Assembly: GCF_000002425.4 (NCBI RefSeq)
Contig: NC_037275.1
Span: 4,825,482-4,889,481 of the forward strand
Length of the DNA: 64,000 bases
Direction: 5' to 3'
Source of the DNA: Physcomitrium patens
Taxonomy: Eukaryota; Streptophyta; Bryopsida; Funariales; Funariaceae
The notes beneath the pieces are model-generated. The model was not told the origin of the DNA. It did not search any database and saw nothing but the letters and a program-made list of their open reading frames with translations. This document shows, piece by piece, positions 5,605 through 46,704 of this stretch. The position numbers and the translations under genes are program-made. Positions within the stretch are counted from its first letter, which is position 1. The number at the start of each line of letters is the position of its first letter.

Positions 5605-6263
5605 ATAGAAGTACATTACCATATAAAAAATCAGTAACATATTATATCTATTAATCAAAAATCTACATGCAATAATAATAGTTTTAGTACAAAAATTAAC
5701 AAACATTAAAAATTTTAGTAATTAATTACTTATCCTTTTAAATACGTATTTAAAATTTTTAAAAATTATATTTTATTTTTATTCTTTTTACTATTTTTTA
5801 ATATATAACCAAATAAATCAAAAAAATATGAAAATAACATAAAAATATAATTTTATTGAAAGAATTGGATTTATATATATATATATATATAGAATTAAAA
5901 CTAATAATTTTAATCAATAATAAATTATGTTATCAAAATTTATTTTTTTATTTTTTAAACTCAATTTTATGAAATATAAAGTAATATTTACATATATCAA
6001 ACATATGACTTCTATTTTTTCTAAAACAATTATATAAGTCATTAATTTTAATTGATAATTTAACTTTGGCATGTTTTGACAAACTAGTTTCAAAATCTTG
6101 CACTGTCTAGAAGTCATGTAGATTTTAGCCTTCAATACATTCTATTAAGCTCCAATTAAATTTGGAGAATCAATGCATCACAAAGATTATAGATCACAAT
6201 CAAACTTGACGAGAACTTAATGTGAATTTCAAGAAGCATGTTCAATATCTAAAATGGGACAAG

Positions 6264-6521
6264 ACTATTTCAAAAATCTAAGATCCTTCTAATCCACACC
6301 AACATAAATTCCATCACAATGTAGTATAGAGTAGGCTACAATAAAAGAAAATAGAATATAACTAAACATGAAGATACAAAACCAAATTTTACTAAGAGAA
6401 AGGATTTGAAGCCATACCTGATCAAATACCTAAAAAGCCTTGGCTAGTCCTATTTATACTTTGTCCAACCATCCTCAAGCTTTTAGAACATTCGTAATAG
6501 TGGATTCGACCTAAATAACTC
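6264..6521 (-). repeat. E0 3' LTR, part 1 (left of the E1 insertion)
   Basis: It matches the left 260 bp of the E0 LTR at 17620 onward. It stops exactly at the AACTC target site where E1 begins, and the match resumes at 12858 after E1. Confidence 0.75.
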
Positions 6522-6539
6522 TGTTAGGGACATATTCCT

Positions 6540-6842
6540 TAGAACTTTCTAGAGAGAAGTTTCTAGAACCTTCTAAAAAACAAGCCTCTGGAACCTTCTA
6601 GAAGAGAAGCCTCTGAAACCTTTTAGAGAGAAGTTTCTAAAAGCTTCTAGAAAGGAAGTCTCTGGAACCTTCTAGAAGAGAAGCTTCTAGAAGCTTCTAG
6701 AAAGGAATCCCCTGGAACTTTCTAGAAGCTTCCTAGTTAATAGAAGTAGCTCGAGAAGTTTCTAGAACCTTCTAGAAAGGAAGCCTCTGGAACCTTCTAG
6801 AAGCTTTCTAGTTAATAGAAGTAGCTCGAGAAGCTTCCTAAG
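6540..6842 (+). promoter_or_regulatory. Heat-shock-element-like array in E1 U3
   Basis: The heat shock factor site is built of alternating GAA and TTC units separated by two bases. This stretch is dominated by them: five perfect units at 6680-6702 and repeated three-unit runs such as GAAccTTCtaGAA elsewhere. They lie upstream of the TATA box at 6849. The 3' LTR has the same array, and its substitution at the best run falls in a spacer. Heat response is inferred from the motif only. Confidence 0.6.
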
Positions 6843-6848
6843 TAGGAG

Positions 6849-6857
6849 TATATATAG
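6849..6857 (+). promoter_or_regulatory. E1 TATA box
   Basis: TATATATAG. Counting 32 nt from its first base gives position 6881, the first base of the 11-nt sequence complementary to the primer site. Confidence 0.7.
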
Positions 6858-7018
6858 GGATCGAGGCTGAAGAGTTCTTCAGTCTCGACAACACATCTCT
6901 TGGAGTTCTAACTCACCTTTCTGGTATTGTTCTTGTACTCATCTGTTTAATCTAGTTCTGCCACTTTTTCTTGAACTTCTTGTTAGATTTCAAGTCTGTA
7001 TTTTGTGTCCGTGACAGT

Positions 7019-7029
7019 TTGTCGAGACT
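7019..7029 (+). promoter_or_regulatory. E1 candidate primer-binding site (self-priming type)
   Basis: TTGTCGAGACT starts 2 nt after the 5' LTR. Its reverse complement AGTCTCGACAA lies at 6881-6891, where the mRNA is predicted to start. A tRNA-iMet-like ATATCAGAGC occurs at 7043-7052, 26 nt beyond the LTR, which is unusually far for a tRNA primer site, so it is the competing explanation. Confidence 0.55.
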
Positions 7030-7064
7030 ACACTAACTTGAGATATCAGAGCTAGTTTTTTCTT

Positions 7065-7300
7065 AGTAGAGTGTGGATTACCCCTCTACTTGAAGGTATA
7101 CTAGCATTTTTTAGAGGTTGCGGATTACCCCTCTACTTGAAGGTATACTAGCATTTTTTAGAGGTTGCGGATTACCCTCCTCTAAACTGATACTTCTTCT
7201 GTTACAATATTGGAGTCTTATTCTTCTTAGAGAGAGTGGATTACCCCTCTTCTTGAAATTCTTAAGGCATTTTATAGGTTGTGGATTACCCTCCTATAAA
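7065..7300 (+). promoter_or_regulatory. E1 leader: five hairpins with GGATTACC loops
   Basis: GGATTACCC occurs at 7075, 7122, 7169, 7238 and 7283. Each copy sits in the loop of a short stem: AGTAGAG/CTCTACT (7065-7090), TAGAGG/CCTCTA (7112-7135), TTTAGAGG/CCTCTAAA (7157-7186), GAGAG/CTCTT with one G-U (7232-7251), TTTATAGG/CCTATAAA (7271-7300). The loop is constant while stems change in a base-pair-preserving way. Part of the leader is a tandem duplication of about 47 bp. Confidence 0.65.
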
Positions 7301-7343
7301 CCAATATTACCTCTTATAGGGTCATTTTTGTCCTTCTTTTAGA

Positions 7344-12362: not shown

Positions 12363-12857
12363 TGTTAGGGACATATTCCTTAGAACTTTCTAGAGAGAAG
12401 TTTCTAGAACCTTCTAAAAAACAAGCCTCTGGAACCTTCTAGAAGAGAAGCCTCTGGAACCTTTTAGAGAGAAGTTTCTAAAAGCTTCTAGAAAGGAAGT
12501 CTCTGGAACCTTCTAGAAGAGAAGCTTCCAGAAGCTTCTAGAAAGGAATCCCTTGGAACTTTCTAGAAGCTTCCTAGTTAATAGAAGTAGCTCGAGAAGT
12601 TTCTAGAACCTTCTAGAAAGGAAGCCTCTGGAACCTTCTAGAAGCTTTCTAGTTAATAGAAGTAGCTCGAGAAGCTTCCTAAGTAGGAGTATATATAGGG
12701 ATCGAGGCTGAAGAGTTCTTCAGTCTCGACAACATATCTCTTGGAGTTCTAGCTCACCTTTCTAGTGTTGTTCTTTTACTCATCTGTTTAATCTAGTTCT
12801 GCCACTTCTTCTTGAACTTCTTGTTAGATTTCAAGTCTGTATTTTGTGTCCGTGACA
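12363..12857 (+). repeat. E1 3' LTR
   Basis: 495 bp, about 9 differences from the 5' LTR. Preceded by the purine tract at 12349-12362. The 11-nt sequence AGTCTCGACAA and the TATA box are intact. Confidence 0.95.
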
Positions 12858-13015
12858 AACTCTCATAAACTCTTTTAAAATGTTTCATAGTAGATCCTAT
12901 ATAATCTATTAATTTAGCTCCAATTCTAAATACTTCTATAAGCTTCTCAAATGTGGCTCTTACTATCTATCTCTATGTGCTAATAATGGAAATATCTTAT
13001 CTATAACTCATTATA
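12858..13015 (-). repeat. E0 3' LTR, part 2 (right of the E1 insertion)
   Basis: It begins with the duplicated AACTC (12858-12862) and continues the E0 LTR match (CTCTTTTAAAATGTT compared with CTCTTCTAAAATGTT at 17885-17899) to about 13015. Confidence 0.75.
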
Positions 13016-13779
13016 ATTAATTCTCTTCTATTAATATAGAACTTCCTTGCTTCACTTCCGATGGTATTTCTAAATTATTTCTTAGAAATGAATGAGGTTT
13101 TGTACACATTTCCATCTTGCATCATGGATGAAATAACCTTTTCAAAGGACTTTATATTAAAGTTGTACATGTCCACTGCCATAGCAAAGGTAGTGATGTT
13201 CCAAAATAGTATCCACTTCATACTCTTATTGGTCATCAACTATAACTAAAGGTGGTAATAGTTGATATTAGTTTGAAAAGTACCTTGATTTGGTATAAAA
13301 TTCCTTGAGTTACAAAACATAGAAGATCAGATGGATTTGAATATGTGGCAGAAGCTTAAGGCAGTATATGACATTAGAAAACACAACAAAAATATAAAAA
13401 GATGTAAGCCATTGAAGTGCTAGTTTATGGATTTGAATTGATATAATTAGTAGCAAGTTGGCATTGAAGAGTGACACTTGATCACCCTCTGAAAAGATCT
13501 TGTATTTTTGGTGGTTATCTGTATATTTTTTTTGTCAATTTTGTGCAATAAAGAGGCAATGTCGTACCTACTATAAGACTGTTATAAGTTGTTGTATAAA
13601 TTCCTCTATTATTGGATTATTAGTGACAATGGGACAATGGAGAGTTGCTAGCATAATTGGATACTAATTAATGTTAAAGAAGAATGGTGAATGACTAATA
13701 CTTTCTTAAATACTATCATTGTAAGCAAATTCTAAAGGCATCAAATATTCATCCCAATCATTATGATGAAGTGCTACGA

Positions 13780-14330
13780 TTGCTTGTAGCATATCCTCCA
13801 AGTTACAATTACCATGCTTTGTTTGTGTATCTTTTTGGAGATAGAAGGCTATAAATATGGCAAGTCATATGCCTAGTGGCTTAAATAAGGCTTGCCAAAA
13901 GTTTCTTGTGAAGTATCGATTTTGATTTGAAATGATGATACAAGATAATCCATCATGATAAAAGATAGTATTGAAGAAGATCAGTGCAAGTGTTGAGGCA
14001 TCAATATCTAAGTGTACCATAGCCAAGTGAAGTTACTTTAAGAATCAATCCACAAAGACAACAACTGCAATGTGATTGTGAAGTATCTACGGCAAACATA
14101 TAATGAGATCTATAATCACCTGCTCTCATTGTGTTATAGGTAGTGAAATTGGTTGTAATAGTCTAGGAAATGTTGTGTTGCATGCTTTATTACATTGGCA
14201 TGACTTACAAGAACCCACAAAAGCTCAAATATCATGATTCAAACTTGTTTAAATCATATTCTTAAAATCTGTTCTAGAGTCTTCTCACGGCTTAGATATC
14301 CAAATATTGAGATGTCTTGTCCCTCTTGAA
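13780..14330 (-). pseudogene. E0 integrase relic
   Basis: The minus strand reads as a Ty3 integrase: C.SCQ.NK zinc-site remains, then a LLQPISLPIT linker, a VVVFVD block, HLDIDASTLA, and YHDGLSCIIISNQN, which matches the usual HGLP..IISDRD around the second catalytic Asp. The catalytic residues are altered and stops interrupt it. Confidence 0.65.
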
Positions 14331-15049
14331 GTATGTATGTTTGAAGTATAGAATTTTCAAATACATTTATTTGCTTCTTGTAATAGAGTAAGCCATCATT
14401 AAGATTATAATTTTGATACTATACATTGCCTACCTTCAATCAATTGCTAAGCATCTCAATATGTAACTTTCTTCCGTTCTACTTCTTTAGTTAGGTTTGA
14501 AATGATAGTACTAATGGTAGCAACTTCTACCTTGTCTTTCAATTTGGCCTTCAAATCTGATCTATACAATAAGTTGTCTAGCATAATATGTTGTTGCTCT
14601 TACTTGTATTCAAGCTGAATGTCAAAAAATTACAACTATTCTTTCTAATAATAATGTCATGATGTCATATTTTTCATATGTAAATCATATAGCATAGGTC
14701 AATGGTCAGTCCAAACAATCATTGGCTTCCTCAATAAATAGTGTCATCACATCTTTGTAGCATATATAATCGCTAATTGCTCTTGATCACATATAGAGTA
14801 ATTACGCTTTATCTTTTTCAGCTTATGTGATTCATATGCCATATATTAAAGATTCTTATCAAATTTTTATTAAAAGACCACTTCAATAATAAAATCAAAA
14901 GCATTAATGTCAAGTATACAAGGAAGGTTGGAATCATATAGTTGCAATATTAAAGTAGTAATGAATGCTTCCTTCAACCTATCAAAGGCGCTTTGTTGTT
15001 CCAATTTCTATTCAAATGGAACATCCTTCTTGAATAGGCATGTCAATGA

Positions 15050-15700
15050 GGTAGCAATGTGTGCAAATTTCTGAATAAAATGGCAATAATATCTAAAAAG
15101 GCCTAAAAAAGATCAGACTTTAAAAGCATCTTTAGAAGTTGGTCAATCCTCCGTTGCTTTTATCTTATCTTGCTCCATGTGCACACCTTTGGAGGATACC
15201 ATATGACCCAAAAAAATGACCTCTGACTTCTAAAGTTCACACTTTGATTGCTTGCAATAGAAGTAACTATCTTACAACCAACGTAGCACTTTTCATAGAT
15301 ATTACACATGCTCCTAAGGGATTTTATTATATACTAAGATATTATTGATAAAGACAACTACATACTTCTTCAAAAGGTCTCAAAATAATTCTAATCATGT
15401 GATCCATGAAAGAAGCTGGAGCATTTGTAATGCCAAAAGATAAAACAAGCCATTTAAAATGCCCATAGTACATACAAAATGCCGTCTTTTCAATATCTTC
15501 TCTTGCAATAGGTATTTATCAATAATCACTGTGAAGATCAAATTTGCTAAAGATGGTCGTACTTCAAAGTTGGTCAAGAAGATCGTCCACGCATGGAAGT
15601 GGATATGTATTCTTATCAATATATTTATTGAGGCTTCAATAGTCAATGCAAAGCCAAAGTCTATCATCTTTCTTAGGTACAGAGAATATAGGTACTTTCT
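15050..15700 (-). pseudogene. E0 reverse transcriptase relic
   Basis: On the minus strand several frames together encode recognisable Ty3 RT: a YGHFKW..LSFGITNAPASF block, the expected spacing to the palm region, then a VFFLGHMVSSKG block. Stops and frameshifts break it. The wording (NAPASFM, and HLAPCHTD-like integrase further on) is that of the ordinary plant chromovirus group, unlike E1 and E2. Confidence 0.7.
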
Positions 15701-17619
15701 TTGGTAATGTGCTTTCTTAAATGAGGCCCTTTTCTAAGAGTTCATCCAATGTCTTTTGTAACTCTTTAGATTCATTTGATATTAGATGATAAATTGGCCG
15801 ACTTGCCAATTTGGTCCCAAGCAATAGTCCTATTTGAAAAGTGGCACCTCCATCTAGAGGCACACCATTAGGTAGGTCGGTTGGAAAAACATCTTGATAT
15901 TTTCATTTGAGTTTTTTGCCAATTTTACTCTTTTGCTTGTCTTTTCCACTACTAATATAAGATTTGGAACCACCATATATATTGGTTACTTATGTTATAT
16001 TTTCTTCTTTATAATGGTTATTTCTATAAATAAATCTTTAGTTACTAATCATTTTTCTTCCTCACTTAATGTAGAGGTACAAAGAATCACCTTGCAACTA
16101 CTATCTTTGAAGGAGATTGTTCTTGCTATTTAATCAACTTGCTTATTTTCCATCTCTAGCCACCACATACCAAAGATAATATCATATCTTAGCTTTGTTA
16201 CCTTGAATTTCTTTCTTAAGACGTAAGTACCACTCAACCTCAAGATTTCTATTTCTTATGTTTTATTCAATATGTTCTTTTGGTCATCCACAATGTATAT
16301 ACTCCTTCCCTTGATTACCTTAGTTTTAATCCTAAGTTGGTCAGTAATTTCAATCAAGATGTAATTTTTTGTGGAATTACAACCCATAATCACTTGACAT
16401 GGTTGTCTTTTTAGTCGTTCCATTAGGTATATCAGTTGATCTTTTTTATAGTTATCAAAGACCATGTCGTTTGTCTCTAAGAGGCAATAATTATCTCTAA
16501 TACTAATCCTCAGCCCCTTTATTAAGGAGCCTTTTTTCCTTACTCCATTTCATTAGTGATTTGGTGAATCTCGAGACTACAAACCTACCTTAATCTGTTG
16601 ATACTTGAATTTTGATATTTTGAACAACCTCTAATTTGATGGCCTAGCTCCCAAAAATAGAAATATAATCCCTTCTATGCCAATATTTGTTGTCTTTGTA
16701 GTGTCAATAATCATTATAGGACATCAATCTTCATTGGCATTGATTGTTATATCATAATATTACATAATGATATAAGACTTTGTACTATAGGTTGTGCTCC
16801 ACAATTTCTGAAATCTATAGCATTGATCTTCTCTACAATCTTAATTGGCTCTTCAAATGTTTGTAGATCCTTTAGTTCCACCTCTCACTAGACTTAAAGT
16901 TTCAACCTTCATAGAAATCAATCTATCATCTCTGCTTTTGAAACATTATCAATTTGGAGAGATATGAACTTGAATTGAAAGACATAATCTTGCACTGACC
17001 TAAATTGTGTAAGATTTGTCAATTGATCGTGTACTATTTCTTTTGTATTAATAGACCGAAATTAATTCCTAAACTCAATTTTAAACTCCTCCCAATTACA
17101 AAATCCACCCTAAGCTCTATAGCTTTGAACTCGATGTTGCCACCAAATGGCTGTCGCATCTCTCAAATAGTTAACTGCATACATAATTCTTTTGATGGTA
17201 TTTGTCCCAAATAATTGGAGGTATTGTTATATAGTGAAGAGCCATTGGCATACATCTTCTTGCCTTAAAGTCCTAGAGTATATACCAAGCTTATTCAATT
17301 TTAGCCTAATAGATGTCGACTCCTTTGTCCTAGAAGCTTCCATTTGCCTTTATAAAGTAGCTATCTCGCCTAGAAGGTGTTATATATGAGCCTCCATTCG
17401 AGATTACTTTGTCCTATCTTCCATACTGCAATTTTCTTGCTCGACTCTACTATTGTAATGCTTTCTCTCCTTCCAATTGACTTCTTTAGAGTAACTTGTG
17501 GTAGCCTCAACACAATACCAATTTGACCACAAGAACTGACTTTGAACTAGACTATGGCTATCGACATGCTACTAAACGATAGTATAACACTTGCTTTGAT
17601 ATTAATGAAATTATATCAA

Positions 17620-18032
17620 ACTATCTTGAAAATCTAAGATCCTTCTAATCCACAATAACATAAATCTCACCACAATGTAAGACAAAGTAATCTACAATAA
17701 ATGAAAATAGAATAGAACTGAACAAAAAAAATGCAAAACCAAACTTTACTAAGAGAAAGGGTCCAAAGCTATACCTAAGGAGATGCTCAAATGGCCTTGG
17801 CCAATCCTAATTATACTTTGTCCAACCATTTTGGAATTTTTTAGAATGTTCTTTGATAGGCCCTACCTAAATAATCACCATAAGCTCTTCTAAAATGTTC
17901 CATCGTGGATCTTATATAGTCTATTAACTTAGCCCTATTTTTAAAAACTTCTATAAAGTTCTCAAACATGGCTCTAACTATCTATCTCTATGTGCCAATA
18001 ATACAAATATCTTATCTATACCTCTTTATAAT
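17620..18032 (-). repeat. E0 5' LTR
   Basis: Right-hand copy of the direct repeat that flanks E0, about 413 bp. The edges are set by where similarity to the left copy stops, so they are good to about 10 bp. The terminal TG/CA is no longer clear. Confidence 0.7.
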
Positions 18033-40356: not shown

Positions 40357-40894
40357 TGTCACGGACATACATATAATTACCTATATGAATAGATAAAAGT
40401 ATGTAAAAGTAGATAAAAGTAAGTTAATTGTGTAATATCTTCTAGAGAAGCTTCTTAGAAGCTTCATAGACGCTGCTTTGACTTTATAGGAGTCTATAGT
40501 TGACTTTTAGGCTAGAAACTTGGTCAACAAGTTAGCCATGTGCCACACATGTTGGAAGCTTAAAGAACAAGCTAACTACGTGGTCCATCCATAGAAAACT
40601 TGCCTTGTAAGCAAAGGCATGTGGCCTAGAAAGTCAACATATATTGGAAGTCTTATAGAACATCGCCATGTGGCTTCTAGTTAGATAGTATATATAGAGG
40701 CAAGAGTGAAGCCCTCTTCACTCTTGTCAACTCCTTTCTTGCTTCTAGTCTAGTTTCAAGGGTCTCTAGTTTTCTTGTATTTTGGCAATAGCCATTCTAA
40801 TTTCTTTCTTAATATACATATTTCTATTTTGTCCTATTTCTTTGAGAAAAGTCTCACTTACTCTTTAGCTTTCATCGAGTTCTTGTCCTTGACA
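40357..40894 (+). repeat. E2 5' LTR
   Basis: 538 bp. U3 has two GAAgcTTC palindromes separated by 3 nt (40447-40465), TATATATA at 40689-40696, and an 11-bp inverted repeat CAAGAGTGAAG/CTTCACTCTTG (40701-40726) just after it. Confidence 0.95.
40689..40697 (+). promoter_or_regulatory. E2 TATA box
   Basis: TATATATAG. The 11-nt sequence complementary to the primer site starts 31 nt downstream of its first base, at 40720. Confidence 0.7.
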
Positions 40895-40896
40895 GA

Positions 40897-40907
40897 TTGA
40901 CAAGAGT
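40897..40907 (+). promoter_or_regulatory. E2 candidate primer-binding site (self-priming type)
   Basis: TTGACAAGAGT, 2 nt after the 5' LTR. Its reverse complement ACTCTTGTCAA is at 40720-40730. A weak iMet-like AATATGAGAGC follows at about 40915-40925. Confidence 0.55.
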
Positions 40908-40943
40908 ACACTTACAATATGAGAGCTTTGTCTTTTCTTGATT

Positions 40944-41012
40944 AAGAGTGGATTACCCCTTTTTCTTGATAAGACATAAGCGCATTAGAAGTTGCGGATT
41001 ACCCTCTTTTAA
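40944..41012 (+). promoter_or_regulatory. E2 leader: two hairpins with GGATTACC loops
   Basis: GGATTACCC at 40950 and 40996. Stems AAGAG/CTTTT (40944-40963, one G-U) and TTAGAAG/CTTTTAA (40985-41012, one G-U). Loops are the same as in E1 (TGGATTACCC and TTGCGGATTACCCT) although the stems differ. Confidence 0.6.
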
Positions 41013-41106
41013 ACTGATATTGTTCTTAGTATTTTCTTTGTTATCAATTCCTCTCTTCTATTTGTTTTGAGCGTTATTAGACATCTTCTCTTTTCTAAGT
41101 GCTACT

Positions 41107-42114
41107 ATGGCAGAGCTTGTTGAAATGAAGAGTGCAATGGCACAGATGCAAGAACAATTGAGGGAGTTAATGCTTGCGATGCATCAACTCAATTTACCAC
41201 CACAAGGAGCAACAAGAATGGTAGGAAGTGAAGATATAGAGATGATTGGGGCTGCTTCAACATCTGCACCAAACCATGTCCCTTCTCCCAGAATGGAACA
41301 CCCTTCGAGTGTTAGAGAACCGAGAGTGGCCTTGCCCGAGAAGTTTGATGGTACCAGATCCAAGTTTCGAGGATTCATCAATCAGGTCCAATTAGTGATT
41401 GAACTTCAACCCCAGAGCTATCCAACTCCAGGGTCACAAGTTAGATTCATTGGTACACTTCTTTCAGGTTCAGCATTGTCATGGTTTTCATCTTTTCTTG
41501 AACGACGAGATCCAATATTGGATAATCTGGAGGCTTTTTTGGCGGAGTTTCGATCCATGTTTGGAGAACATGATGCAATTCGTGTTGCAACCAACAAGAT
41601 CCGTATTTTGCGACAAGGCAATCGATCAGTAACATTATATGCTTCGCAATTTCGACAACTTGCAACTGATATCAAGTGGGATGATGTCGCACTTGTGAGT
41701 CAATTTCTCTACGGATTACAATATGAGGTAAAGAAATTGATGCTTAATTTACCTGATCCTCAAACATTGAGTCAAGCAATTGACTTTGCTGTGAAGTGCA
41801 ACAATCGACTTTTTGAATTTCGATCCGAGAGTCGCACAAGTAGGCCTCAACGTTACTACAATTCAATGGCAACACCGACGTCTCCTCAACACATACCTTC
41901 AGAAGTAGAGGATATGCAAATTGATGCGGTACGTTTCAAACCTCTTACTGAGCAAGAAAAGTCTCGTCGTCGACAAGAAGGATTGTGCTTATATTGTGGA
42001 GAACCTAAGCACACTGCTCAACATTGTCCAAAGAAGCGACGTAACTACAAAATGAGGAGTACGGCTGTCAAAGAAGACAGTATGTCGAAAAACGAGTACG
42101 TCCAGCTACAATAG
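41107..42114 (+). CDS. gag: E2 Gag
   Basis: Structural protein of the retrotransposon particle, 335 residues. The first 40 residues are Met/Gln/Leu-rich and helical. The capsid-like core (about residues 78-240) includes EKFDGTRSKFRGFINQ, GSALSWF and LPDPQTLSQAI. A CCHC zinc knuckle CLYCGEPKHTAQHC lies near residue 297, followed by a basic tail. The ATG at 41107 follows the leader hairpins and matches the E1 start. The stop is TAG 42112-42114; pol is open in the -1 frame from 42045, so the two overlap by about 70 nt. No damage seen. Confidence 0.93.
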   Translation: MAELVEMKSAMAQMQEQLRELMLAMHQLNLPPQGATRMVGSEDIEMIGAASTSAPNHVPSPRMEHPSSVREPRVALPEKFDGTRSKFRGFINQVQLVIELQPQSYPTPGSQVRFIGTLLSGSALSWFSSFLERRDPILDNLEAFLAEFRSMFGEHDAIRVATNKIRILRQGNRSVTLYASQFRQLATDIKWDDVALVSQFLYGLQYEVKKLMLNLPDPQTLSQAIDFAVKCNNRLFEFRSESRTSRPQRYYNSMATPTSPQHIPSEVEDMQIDAVRFKPLTEQEKSRRRQEGLCLYCGEPKHTAQHCPKKRRNYKMRSTAVKEDSMSKNEYVQLQ

Positions 42115-45100
42115 GGACCGTGCGGCTGGAATCTTGTACAACTTCTAATGAAGGTCCTATCCTCTCCTCAGAACCATCTCCTTGTTTTATAATAGATGTG
42201 CGTTTAGGACCTAATAATTACAAAGCCTCTGCCTTGATAGATTCAGGAGCCTCAGCTTGTTTTTTAGATGAAGAATTTGCTAGATGTCATAGAATATCAT
42301 TAATACAAAAAACTAAACCTGTACACGTAGAAGTCATAGATGGTCGTCCGTTGTCTTTTGGAGATGTAACTCACGAAACACTTCCTGTAGATGTAGTAAT
42401 AAATGGTCATAGTAGTTGCGTAATTTTTAATATAATTAGATCTCCCTCTAATCCAGTAATTTTAGGCTTATCATGGTTAGAAAAGTATAATCCTCGAATA
42501 GATTGGATTTCTCGTAAACTTGATTTTCCTCGGAGCATTAGTAACAGTTCTATTAATCAAGTAAAAAACCATGAGTCTAGTATAGTAAAACCCACACTTA
42601 TAGGTGCAAAAGCATTTATACACGCAGCAAAAGAAGGATCAACTTTTGCTATTTATACTGCACCTATTTCTGAAAGCGTAAAGACTTCAAGTGGCATTCC
42701 AAGTCAATATCAGGATTATCAAGACGTTTTTGAGAAAAAGAATGCAGATATTCTTCCTGAGCATCGCCCATACGATTGTTCAATCGATCTCAAGGAAGGA
42801 ACTCAGCCACCATTTGGACCAATTTACAGTTTATCGCAAGATGAGTTGGCTGAACTCAAGACATATATTGACGAGAATTTAGCGAAGAATTTCATACGCC
42901 ATTCAAAATCTCCAGCAGGAGCTCCAATTTTATTCGTAAAGAAAAAAGATGGATCTTTACGAATGTGTGTTGACTATCGAGGACTCAACAAGATCACAAT
43001 CAAGAACAGGTATCCATTACCTTTGATATCAGGACTCCTTGGCCAGTTAAATCAAGCTAAGATCTATACAAAAATAGATCTAAGAGGAGCATATAATCTA
43101 GTACGGATCAAAGAAGGAGATGAATGGAAGACTGCGTTTCGAACCAGGTATGGACACTTTGAATACAATGTCATGCCTTTTGGACTCACGAATGCACCAG
43201 CTGCTTTTCAACATCTCATGAATGATGTATTTCGTAAATTCTTAGACAATTTTGTCGTCTGCTACCTAGACGATATCCTGATTTATTCTAAGAATATTGA
43301 AGAACATGAAATACATGTTCGTCAAGTATTACAAAAACTTAGAGATGCAGGATTGTACGCCAAGATAGAAAAGTGTGTATTTCACACTACTCAAGTTGAC
43401 TTTTTAGGATACATCATTTCAAATGATGGTCTTATGATGGATTCTAAGAAAGTCCAAACAATCATGGATTGGAAGATTCCAAAGACTGTAAGAGATGTCC
43501 AATGTTTCCTGGGATTTGCCAATTACTATCGGATCTTCATCAAAGACTTCTCACGAGTTGCAGCTCCACTTACACGCTTGACTAGTAAAGATAAATTCCA
43601 ATGGAATCAAGAAGCGGAAGCAGCATTTGAAGCCTTGAAGACATCGTTTGTCTCTGCACCAGTCTTATATCGTGTTGACTTTTCCAAGGTATTTTTTATG
43701 GAAACAGATGCATCGGATTTTGCCTTGGGTGCAGTTTTATCACAAATGGGAACAGATGACAAACTTCATCCGATAGCTTTTCATTCAAGAAAATTCTCAG
43801 CAGCCGAGATCAATTATGAGATCCACGATAAAGAACTTCTTGCAATCGTGGATTCTTTTCAAGAATGGCGTCATTATCTAGAAGGTGCTTCTAGTCCAGT
43901 CACTGTGTATACAGATCACAAGAACCTCGAGTATTTCATGTCAACACGCGTGTTGAATCGTCGTCAAGCTCGTTGGAGTATGTCTTTGTCAAGATTCGAC
44001 TTCATTATCACTTATCGGCCAGGAAAACAACAAGGTTTGTCTGATGCCCTGTCTAGACGTTCTTATTTTGCACCAAAAGAAGGAGATGCAGCTTTTGAGC
44101 AACAAAGAACAGTCCTCTTGAAACCGGAGCAATTTCATCTCCGAGCAGTGAAATCAACACTGACTGTTGATTCAACTTTTCTCAAGCAAATCCAGTCCAG
44201 TATGTCCTCAGACCCTTTTGTTCATGATATCGAGAATAATTCTTCCAAGTCTCATGATTCTCCTAAGTTCGAGTTCAAGAATAATCTATTATATTTTGAA
44301 GGACGCCTATATGTTCCAGAAGGAAAAGCACGTTTGCGTGTTCTTCAAGCACGTCATGACTTTCCAGCAGCAAGTCACTTTGGATATAATAAGACTCTGG
44401 AACTCATATCAAGAGATTTTTGGTGGCCACAAATGTGGAAGTCAGTCAAAGACTTTGTACAATCATGTGATATTTGTTCAAGATCAAAAATTCCTCGACA
44501 TCGACCTTACGGACTTCTTCAGCCATTACCTATACCAGAACAACCATGGTCTTCTGTTTCTATGGATTTCATCACAGATCTTCCAAACTCAAGATCTTAT
44601 GATTCTATATTTGTGATAGTAGATCGTTTTACCAAGATGGCACATTTTATGCCATGTACAAAATCTATCACAGGTGAAGAAACAGCTAAGCTTTTCATTG
44701 ATAATATCTATCGCTATCATGGATTACCTAAAGATATCATATCGGATAGGGGAACTCAATTTGTGTCGAGATTCTGGAGGACTCTTTTCAAGATTTTAAA
44801 AGTGGACATAAAGCTATCTTCAGCTTTCCATCCTCGAACTGATGGACAAACAGAGCGCGTAAACCAAGTCTTGGAACAGTATTTAAGGTGTACCATCAAC
44901 TACCAACAAGATGATTGGACAATCCTTCTGCCATTAGCAGAGTTTGCTTATAATAATACAGTACATTCTTCCACGCAACAAACACCTTTCTTTGCCAATT
45001 ATGGCTATCATCCACGACTTGATACTTTTGATTTTTCAAAAGTTGATAATCCTGCAGCAGAAGATATGGCAAATCGGTTGTCAGAGTTACATGCAATAAT

Positions 45101-45608
45101 GAAGGCGCAGTTGAAGAAAGCTCAAGAACGACAAAAGATAAATGTAGATGTATATCGTAAAGAGCAACCACAACTCAACGTGGGTGATAAGGTATGGCTA
45201 CTTCGTCGCAATATCAAGACCACTCGACCTTGTGACAAATTGGACTATCGTAGGCTTGGCCCCTTTTCTGTTTCTGAACAGATCAACCCAGTTGCATATC
45301 GGTTACATCTACCGGAGTCAATGAAGATCCATCCTATATTCCACGTGTCTCTTCTTGAACCATATAAGACAGTGGATATACAAGGAAGAAGACAAATGCC
45401 ACCGCCTCCTATAGAAGTAGATAATAATGAAGAATTTGAGGTGGAAGAGATATTAGACTCAAGGCGGCGCCGAAATAAGCTAGAATATCTTGTTCATTGG
45501 CGCAGATATGATATTAGTGAGCGCACATGGGAGCCATCCAGGAATCTAGCAAATGCATCAGCTAAAGTCAAAGTTTTTCATCAACGACATCCATCAAAAC
45601 CAAGATGA
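42045..45608 (+). CDS. pol: E2 Pol polyprotein (PR-RT-RNase H-INT-chromodomain)
   Basis: Open in the -1 frame relative to gag from 42045 to TGA at 45606-45608; the part homologous to the E1 ATG start begins at 42120 with GTG, so a frameshift product is more likely than a separate start. Residues counted from 42120: protease DSGAS near 41; RT with [19 protein letters not shown] and [13 protein letters not shown] near 382; RNase H TDASDFALGAVL near 526; integrase HHCC zinc site near 745-790, catalytic D near 816, D near 875 and E near 912; chromodomain EVEEILDSRRRRNKLEYLVHW near 1105-1150. All catalytic residues are present. The chromodomain should direct integration to marked chromatin. Wording is nearest, from memory, to fungal and vertebrate chromoviruses (Tf1/sushi/Tcn1 side). 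Confidence 0.93.
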   Translation, partial: LQNEEYGCQRRQYVEKRVRPATIGTVRLESCTTSNEGPILSSEPSPCFIIDVRLGPNNYKASALIDSGASACFLDEEFARCHRISLIQKTKPVHVEVIDGRPLSFGDVTHETLPVDVVINGHSSCVIFNIIRSPSNPVILGLSWLEKYNPRIDWISRKLDFPRSISNSSINQVKNHESSIVKPTLIGAKAFIHAAKEGSTFAIYTAPISESVKTSSGIPSQYQDYQDVFEKKNADILPEHRPYDCSIDLKEGTQPPFGPIYSLSQDELAELKTYIDENLAKNFIRHSKSPAGAPILFVKKKDGSLRMCVDYRGLNKITIKNRYPLPLISGLLGQLNQAKIYTKIDLRGAYNLVRIKEGDEWKTAFRTRYGHFEYNVMPFGLTNAPAAFQHLMNDVFRKFLDNFVVCYLDDILIYSKNIEEHEIHVRQVLQKLRDAGLYAKIEKCVFHTTQVDFLGYIISNDGLMMDSKKVQTIMDWKIPKTVRDVQCFLGFANYYRIFIKDFSRVAAPLTRLTSKDKFQWNQEAEAAFEALKTSFVSAPVLYRVDFSKVFFMETDASDFALGAVLSQMGTDDKLHPIAFHSRKFSAAEINYEIHDKELLAIVDSFQEWRHYLEGASSPVTVYTDHKNLEYFMSTRVLNRRQARWSMSLSRFDFIITYRPGKQQGLSDALSRRSYFAPKEGDAAFEQQRTVLLKPEQFHLRAVKSTLTVDSTFLKQIQSSMSSDPFVHDIENNSSKSHDSPKFEFKNNLLYFEGRLYVPEGKARLRVLQARHDFPAASHFGYNKTLELISRDFWWPQMWKSVKDFVQSCDICSRSKIPRHRPYGLLQPLPIPEQPWSSVSMDFITDLPNSRSYDSIFVIVDRFTKMAHFMPCTKSITGEETAKLFIDNIYRYHGLPKDIISDRGTQFVSRFWRTLFKILKVDIKLSSAFHPRTDGQTERVNQVLEQYLRCTINYQQDDWTILLPLAEFAYNNTVHSSTQQTPFFANYGYHPRLDTFDFSKVDNPAAEDMANRLSELHAIMKAQLKKAQERQKINVDVYRKEQPQLNVGDKVWLLRRNIKTTRPCDKLDYRRLGPFSVSEQINPVAYRLHLPESMKIHPIFHVSLLEPYKTVDIQGRRQMPPPPIEVDNNEEFEVEEILDSRRRRNKLEYLVHWRRYDISERTWEPSRNLANASAKVKVFHQRHPSKPR

Positions 45609-45702
45609 AAACCTCTCTTATAAAAGAGACAAGATTGAGGCAAGATAACATTCAATTTCCTATCCTTGTTTGTAACTTCTTTGCATTTGTGACGCTAATT
45701 AG

Positions 45703-46125
45703 ATGGAGAGCCAACAACCAGCGGATTCAACTCAAGAACCTTCGTTTGCTGACTTACCGGATGAGACATTGCGATTGTCACAACCTTCAAGACGACGCAA
45801 CCGAGATGAAGATCCTCAAGAACGACATGTTCTTCCTCAAATAGATGGTGAGATACAACGCATTTGGTATCACGACCTTGGAAGAGATTCTCGATGTTTG
45901 GTGATATTATTGGAGATAGGAACGACTCCTGATGGTGTTTCAAATGTATTATTTGAAGGAAGTTATGAAGGCCTCAACAGTGATCAAATAACAGGGTGGT
46001 CTTCTCGCCCTGGAATGGGACACTATCGATGGCTAAGAGGACCCATCAACTATCTTCGAAGAGAACAAAGATCAGAGTATGTAGCAAATACAATTCGCCG
46101 CATATTAGATTTTCTCAATATATAA
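45703..46125 (+). CDS. E2 ORF3, accessory protein of unknown function
   Basis: 140 residues, starting 94 nt after the pol stop and ending 41 nt before the 3' LTR. The N-terminus is Ser/Gln/Pro-rich, then RRRNRDEDPQERHVLPQ, a hydrophobic strand-like LVILLEIG, GMGHYRWLRGP, and a helical REQRSEYVANTIRRILDFL end. It has no transmembrane or signal segment and no cysteine/histidine zinc site. The same protein, nonsense-damaged, is in E1 at the same place. I recognise no family. The position is where env or other accessory genes sit in some Ty3 elements, but the sequence is not env-like. The minus-strand relic at 56848-60224 lacks it. Confidence 0.75.
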   Translation: MESQQPADSTQEPSFADLPDETLRLSQPSRRRNRDEDPQERHVLPQIDGEIQRIWYHDLGRDSRCLVILLEIGTTPDGVSNVLFEGSYEGLNSDQITGWSSRPGMGHYRWLRGPINYLRREQRSEYVANTIRRILDFLNI

Positions 46126-46166
46126 TCACCGCTCCTCGTGGAACTCGTCCCTAGAAGGGGGGGTAA

Positions 46167-46704
46167 TGTCACGGACATACATATAATTACCTATATGAAT
46201 AGATAAAAGTATGTAAAAGTAGATAAAAGTAGGTTAATTGTGTAATATCTTCTAGAGAAGCTTCTTAGAAGCTTCATAGACACTGCTTTGACTTTATAGG
46301 AGTCTATAGTTGACTTTTAGGCTAGAAACTTGGTCAACAAGTTAGCCATGTGCCACACATGTTGGAAGCTTAAAGAACAAGCTAACTACGTGGTCCATCC
46401 ATAGAAAACTTGCCTTGTAAGCAAAGGCATGTGGCCTAGAAAGTCAACATATATTGGAGGTCTTATAGAACATCGCCATGTGGCTTCTAGTTAGATAGTA
46501 TATATAGAGGCAAGAATGAAGCCCTCTTCACTCTTGTCAACTCCTTTCTTGCTTCTAGTCTAGTTTCAAGGGTCTCTAGTTTTCTTGTATTTTGGCAATA
46601 GCCATTCTAATTTCTTTCTTAATATACATATTTCTATTTTGTCCTATTTCTTTGAGAAAAGTCTCACTTACTCTTTAGCTTTCATCGAGTTCTTGTCCTT
46701 GACA
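46167..46704 (+). repeat. E2 3' LTR
   Basis: 538 bp, four A/G differences from the 5' LTR. Preceded by the purine tract at about 46153-46166. Confidence 0.95.

Follow-up and report, generated by a model that had tools for sequence, protein, structure and literature searches.

The window, a 64,000-nt stretch of the Physcomitrium patens genome with a G+C content of 33%, holds the LTR retrotransposons here called E1 and E2. The features of E1 are as follows.

6517..6521 (left) and 12858-12862 (right): target-site duplication AACTC, 5 bp
6522..7016, plus strand: 5' LTR, 495 nt, with TGT...ACA ends
6849..6856, plus strand: TATA box TATATATA
6860..6872, plus strand: U3 arm of the U3/R hairpin (alignment A1, columns 6-18)
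6877..6889, plus strand: second arm of the U3/R hairpin, spanning the 4 nt at the end of U3 and nucleotides 1-9 of the 11-mer (A1, columns 23-35)
6881..6891, plus strand: putative self-primer AGTCTCGACAA and RNA 5' end, the transcription start being placed by the distance from the TATA box only
7019..7029, plus strand: predicted self-primer binding site TTGTCGAGACT, LTR end plus 2 nt
7044..7052, plus strand: conserved iMet-like motif TATCAGAGC
7066..7310, plus strand: leader with five hairpin-like GGATTACC repeats
12363..12857, plus strand: 3' LTR
12701..12732, plus strand: U3/R hairpin of the 3' LTR with the second copy of the 11-mer

The reading frames of E1 are interrupted, and its pol matches the pol of E2 through to its end (68% identical). 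E1 has inserted within one LTR of an older minus-strand element (window 6260-6521 and 12863-18032). The other LTR of that element, approximately 80-85% alike, lies at about 17617-18032, and its pol remnants at 13088-15899 are 30-42% identical to E2. The U3 of E1 (6522-6880) forms an array resembling heat-shock elements, with 14 GAAnnTTC, 10 TTCnnGAA and 13 three-unit sites; 1,000 shuffles of this U3 gave on average 0.02 and at most one three-unit site. The corresponding three counts in E2 are 2, 0 and 0. The E1 family may be heat-responsive.

The second lineage, E2, comprises the following.

40357-46704: E2 element
40357..40894, plus strand: 5' LTR; target duplication ATTTG
40689..40696, plus strand: TATA box, 31 nt before the 11-mer
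40699..40728, plus strand: U3/R hairpin, arms 40699-40711 and 40716-40728
40720..40730, plus strand: putative self-primer ACTCTTGTCAA
40897..40907, plus strand: predicted primer binding site TTGACAAGAGT, LTR end plus 2 nt
41107-42114, plus strand: gag, open frame
42120-45608, plus strand: pol, open frame
46167-46704, plus strand: 3' LTR

The gag and pol frames of E2 encode protease, reverse transcriptase, RNase H, integrase, an SH3_Tf2-1 domain and a chromodomain. The chromodomain (PF00385, 3.7e-14) is C-terminal in the integrase; the SH3_Tf2-1 match is PF24626 (1.4e-20). Behind pol lies a third reading frame (45703-46125; 140 aa), which has no Pfam match. The leader repeats of the two elements (7066-7310 and 40945-41015) have a common loop around GGATTACC and different stems, namely AGTAGAG/CTCTACT, TTTAGAGG/CCTCTAAA and TTTATAGG/CCTATAAA. 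Among the 78 distinct instances, which include some within coding sequence, six of six stem pairs form in 45%, only weakly above the 31% of a dealt control. It is possible that these hairpins are packaging signals. An Rfam scan of the window gave no hit at gathering level and weak sub-threshold matches in the LTR region, and no relatives were found among viral contigs.

An earlier note on this DNA had proposed that E1 primes reverse transcription with the 5' end of its own mRNA, in the manner of Tf1. The sequence features on which this proposal was built are present. Specifically, the 11-mer AGTCTCGACAA starts 32 nt past the first T of TATATATA, and its exact reverse complement stands 2 nt past the 5' LTR (GACA-GT-TTGTCGAGACT). 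A third copy of the 11-mer lies inside the 3' LTR (12722-12732). The number of matches to the 11-mer expected in the shuffled window is 0.02 on average. Complementarity had been said to stop at both edges, which is true in E1: nucleotide 12 of the RNA is C, rarely T, and faces T, and the base 3' of the site varies among copies (A, C, G or T). Of the 28 distinct E2 rows, 5 happen to pair at nucleotide 12 too. When an 11-nt match was allowed to come from any LTR position and to start 0-5 nt past the LTR end, sets of 20,000 dinucleotide shuffles gave it 9 times for E1 and 40 times for E2, whose LTR was taken in this calculation from 40359, 2 nt short. The E1 11-mer begins on an A preceded by C, which is the base context of many plant transcription starts. 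The order LTR end CA, two nucleotides, site matches the retroviral U5/PBS layout. Among leaders with perfect complementarity, 23 of 27 pair at least 8 of the 11 nt in unconstrained folds; among all leaders, 37 of 65 do.

Comparison of E1 and E2 indicates that the two 11-nt segments have changed together. The 11-mers differ at nucleotides 2, 6 and 8, and the sites differ at exactly the three partner positions. Given exactly three site changes, simple arithmetic makes this one fitting outcome in 4,455 equally weighted ones. These compensated differences are the strongest single evidence for self-priming. The three compensated pairs may represent few evolutionary events, because only two diverged lineages are compared. 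Readable 11-mers, both in the window and in the 10-kb stretches that were fetched, came only from E1- and E2-type elements. One of these stretches (L013:172-9950) carries two E2-type copies, apparently in tandem, with a repeat spacing of 5,018 nt.

The arrangement is abundant in the genome (470 Mb, 101 contigs searched). Both E1 11-mers, exact and correctly spaced, occur in 1,638 copies (control 0); the search pattern is its own reverse complement and each match was counted on both strands. E2-type sites number 3,112 (control 6) with a pattern that admits variants too. Pairing was then scored in copies in which one of the partners had been left unselected. Twenty E1-type 5' LTRs were picked, among the matches listed, by an exact 22-mer, with the 11-mer fixed and the sites free except in L060, whose perfect site was known beforehand; a partner LTR lies 5.6-6.1 kb away in all of them except L060. 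The sites were perfect in 17 of the 20 (16 of 19 without L060), and three had one mismatch. Conversely, 20 E2 and 20 E1 copies were taken, again among the matches listed, by the exact site of their family. Here the 11-mers were perfect in 17 of 20 E2 copies, each of the other three having one mismatch that keeps a G-U pair, and in 14 of 20 E1 copies, the rest having one mismatch. The distance from the TATA box to the 11-mer is 31 in 20/20 E2 and 32 in 40/40 E1 copies, a figure that is not fully independent since the locator gives the TATA box a small bonus.

Perfect pairs are less frequent in the pooled sets (22 of 40 distinct E1 rows, 7 of 28 E2 rows), for which variant copies had been fetched on purpose. 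Mean pairing in the pooled rows is 10.28 of 11 within the same element as compared to 7.78 across families. The share of paired cells in a set of 44 distinct rows is 93.8%, as against 85.6% after shuffling (0/1,000) and 32-44% after sliding, and 42 cells have changed on both sides where shuffles give 18.7 (0/1,000). The number of 11-mer/site pairs with two-sided changes in these 44 rows is not above shuffles (669/1,000 as high).

The earlier note had also asked whether the two 11-mers change together across copies. They do so between the families E1 and E2; at the level of single copies we see only chance. Within families, two-sided changes are complementary in 4 of 7 E1-type copies and at 1 of 5 E2 positions changed on both sides. 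More specifically, the E1-type copies L014, L033, L036 and L039 have changed on both CpG sides to a complementary state and L115, L116 and L118 to a non-complementary one. Among changed-site E1-type copies, two of nine that read CA at the CpG are compensated, and so is one of seven readable copies that read TG there (8 were fetched, and R of L038 was unreadable); L014 is one more compensated copy, met by chance. Many of the E1 variants can be put down to CpG decay. In the young E2 copies L017 (LTRs 99.6% alike) and L029 (99.4%) the site changes are uncompensated, and L029 retains a G-U pair. Within-family compensation was thus at chance level only and we rejected it as support for self-priming. 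Free divergence of the two 11-mers had been named as evidence against the proposal. Single copies do diverge uncompensated, as is expected of dead insertions, and this divergence therefore decides nothing.

Which primer would fit this site can be judged from the LTR edge. The alternative named in the earlier note, an iMet-like motif 26 nt from the LTR, is real; it is partial in E1, and the distance given for it is close. TATCAGAGC starts 27 nt past the E1 LTR end, and a complete iMet site of 12 nt would have its first base at 7041, 24 nt past it. E1 subfamilies and many E2 copies share the motif or a close form of it, as expected if initiator tRNA-Met primes from 7044-7052 and the 11-mer match serves some other purpose. 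E1 and many E2 copies have TATCAGAGCT (window 7044-7053) 3' of the self-site, although much of the flank differs; copies with the recurring motif include L058, L065 and L120-L129. One E1 subfamily carries GGTATCAGAGC 3' of the exact self-site in 299 copies (control 0), and the full plant iMet primer site TGGTATCAGAGC is present at one spacing at every match listed, approximately the first 100; it sits 23 nt from the LTR end (L058). In all 10 copies fetched from this full-motif subfamily, with the site fixed, the E1 11-mers nevertheless form perfect self-priming pairs. In the other subfamilies seen, the bases opposite the CCA end of the tRNA vary and are wrong for pairing. A start 23-24 nt past the LTR end would moreover put those bases in the LTRs, and in E1 they are absent from there. 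In retroviruses and tRNA-primed elements the position of the primer sets the LTR end. The E1 LTR ends 2 nt before the self-site, which points to a start of minus-strand DNA at the self-site and not at the iMet-like site. We consider priming by initiator tRNA-Met very unlikely. The motif may belong to a pretzel arm as one of its strands, be a relic, or serve as an accessory contact for the tRNA; one pretzel-arm pairing option in E1 is CTAGTTCTG in U5 with CAGAGCTAG.

E1 has no tRNA-type site TGGTATCAGAGC at a distance of 0-3 nt from its LTR end, and the sites of both E1 and E2 start with TTG at the LTR edge. A different tRNA or a tRNA fragment could in principle prime at 7019-7029, and plant elements that use half-tRNAs do exist, according to the accessible part of PMC6317226. 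The CCA end of a tRNA cannot pair with a site that begins TTG and not TGG, and the E1 and E2 sites differ while each matches its own LTR. We consider such a primer very unlikely. The 11-mer at the RNA 5' end remains the primer that we favour.

The 11-mer takes part in a second structure. A stretch made up of the final 4 nt of U3 and the 8-9 nt at the start of the 11-mer can form 12-13 bp with an arm further upstream in U3. Folding energies for 75 distinct U3/R segments reach −15 kcal/mol or better in 46 cases; in 8 cases, seven of them E2 rows, the fold stays short of −10 kcal/mol. Shuffled window segments never reached the observed energy (0/1,000 for both E1 and E2). Note that other segments of the E1 U3 fold better, the U3/R hairpin ranking 33 of 444, because this U3 is full of palindromic heat-shock-like repeats. 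In all 75 rows 90.6% of hairpin cells pair as against 81.7% in shuffles (0/1,000), and 94 cells have changed on both sides as against 39 (0/1,000). A set of 38 rows, chosen by hand from the 75 (14/39 E1, 7/7 E1c, 17/29 E2) and omitting several decayed rows and a row without the U3 arm, gives 93.1% as against 83.9% (0/500) and 38-49% when slid. In these 38 rows two-sided changes occur at 5 of 13 pairs, two of which are outside the 11-mer and wholly inside U3. For neither set does the number of hairpin pairs that carry two-sided changes exceed the shuffles (386/500 as high for 38 rows, 663/1,000 for 75 rows). In one E1 copy, fetched twice from the same place (L002 and L009), the U3 arm reads GAGGCAAAAAAATTCTTC and the hairpin is lost; its 11-mer and site are perfect.

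The strong covariation of the hairpin, including the two pairs wholly within U3, would also be expected if the 11-mer were constrained by the hairpin or the promoter only and the site behind the LTR were a by-product that primes nothing. This leaves the third copy at LTR+2 in both families, exactly where a primer site belongs, unexplained, and we find such a reading highly improbable. The U3 arm would be present in the RNA at the 3' end only, where the hairpin would bury 8-9 of the 11 nt. The 3' hairpin may prevent the 11-mer copy at that end from contending for the primer site. One can picture a two-state switch in which the 5' 11-mer is free to prime and the 3' copy is locked by U3, with U3 arm, 11-mer and site co-evolving and, in view of the conserved iMet-like motif, a tRNA perhaps bound but unused as primer; this is a tentative idea that we hold to be possible, though rather less than an even chance.

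Our results make it very likely, on sequence grounds, that E1 and E2 belong to the Ty3-type chromodomain retrotransposons, with an RNA that starts at base 1 of the 11-mer and primes its own minus-strand DNA. The proposal of the earlier note is thereby supported: E2 keeps the geometry with a different, compensated 11-mer, and the LTR end fits the self-site. The RNA 5' end would fold back onto the complementary site 2 nt past the 5' LTR, RNase H would be expected to cut behind nucleotide 11, the point of cleavage in Tf1, and so release the 11-mer as primer for minus-strand DNA. If the primer remains attached to the new DNA and plus-strand synthesis copies it, the site would be rewritten in each round from the RNA 5' end, so that both 11-mers would stay matched.

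The likeness to Tf1, and also to Tf2 and Tj1, lies in the 11 nt at the presumed RNA 5' end that are complementary to a site adjoining the 5' LTR; Tf1 is, like E1 and E2, a Ty3-type chromodomain element. In Tf1 the primer is the first 11 bases, cut between nucleotides 11 and 12 (PMC7175516, accessible part), and the mechanism and the pretzel structure are covered in the available parts of PMC7175516 and PMC10085805. In contrast to Tf1, the two extra flanking helices of the pretzel are not consistently present in E1 and E2, where priming is proposed from sequence. Among 12 representatives, a 3' arm shows in E1, E1d and E1e, where 10-30 of 300 shuffles equal it, but not in E1b, E1c and E2, where 63-236 of 300 do; a 5' arm shows in none, at least 88 of 300 shuffles being as good.

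The earlier note held that ordinary plant Ty3 elements use a tRNA. This is true, but E1 resembles the moss and clubmoss elements that are predicted to self-prime in the accessible part of a 2019 survey (PMC6317226). According to that part, most plant Tcn1 chromoviruses, which occur in mosses and clubmosses, lack tRNA-type sites and are predicted to self-prime, and the Tcn1 clade clusters with Tf1/Sushi. Self-priming is therefore not new for the clade. We liken E1 and E2 to plant Tcn1 by these features, the missing tRNA-type site and the predicted self-priming. What differs is that the survey, in its accessible part, has neither a test at copy level or by covariation nor a U3/R hairpin. In the parts available, self-priming is also proposed for fungal Tcn1 (PMC7175516), neither tRNA nor self-priming evidence was found for SM-Tcn1 of Selaginella (PMC2864245), Physcomitrella elements are given without a stated primer site (PMC3350952), and polymerase II promoters of such elements are said often to involve a hairpin (PMC3601003). 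The part of PMC7466625 that we could use describes RLG1 of P. patens as a very-high-copy chromodomain Ty3 family and RLG2 as a heat-induced Ty3 family. From copy number and promoter motifs alone, our guess is that E2 is RLG1 and E1 is RLG2. Literature titles and abstracts, a scope that leaves most subscription papers outside, contained no test in this moss family and no hairpins of self-priming elements.

The covarying U3/R hairpin is possibly the new part and the one most worth testing. If the lock is true, the hairpin answers how the RNA avoids the wrong copy of its primer. The comparison of E1 with E2 provides a between-family sequence test of a mechanism that, in the accessible parts of the literature examined, has so far only been predicted for plant elements, and the family tested here has more than 1,000 well-preserved copies.
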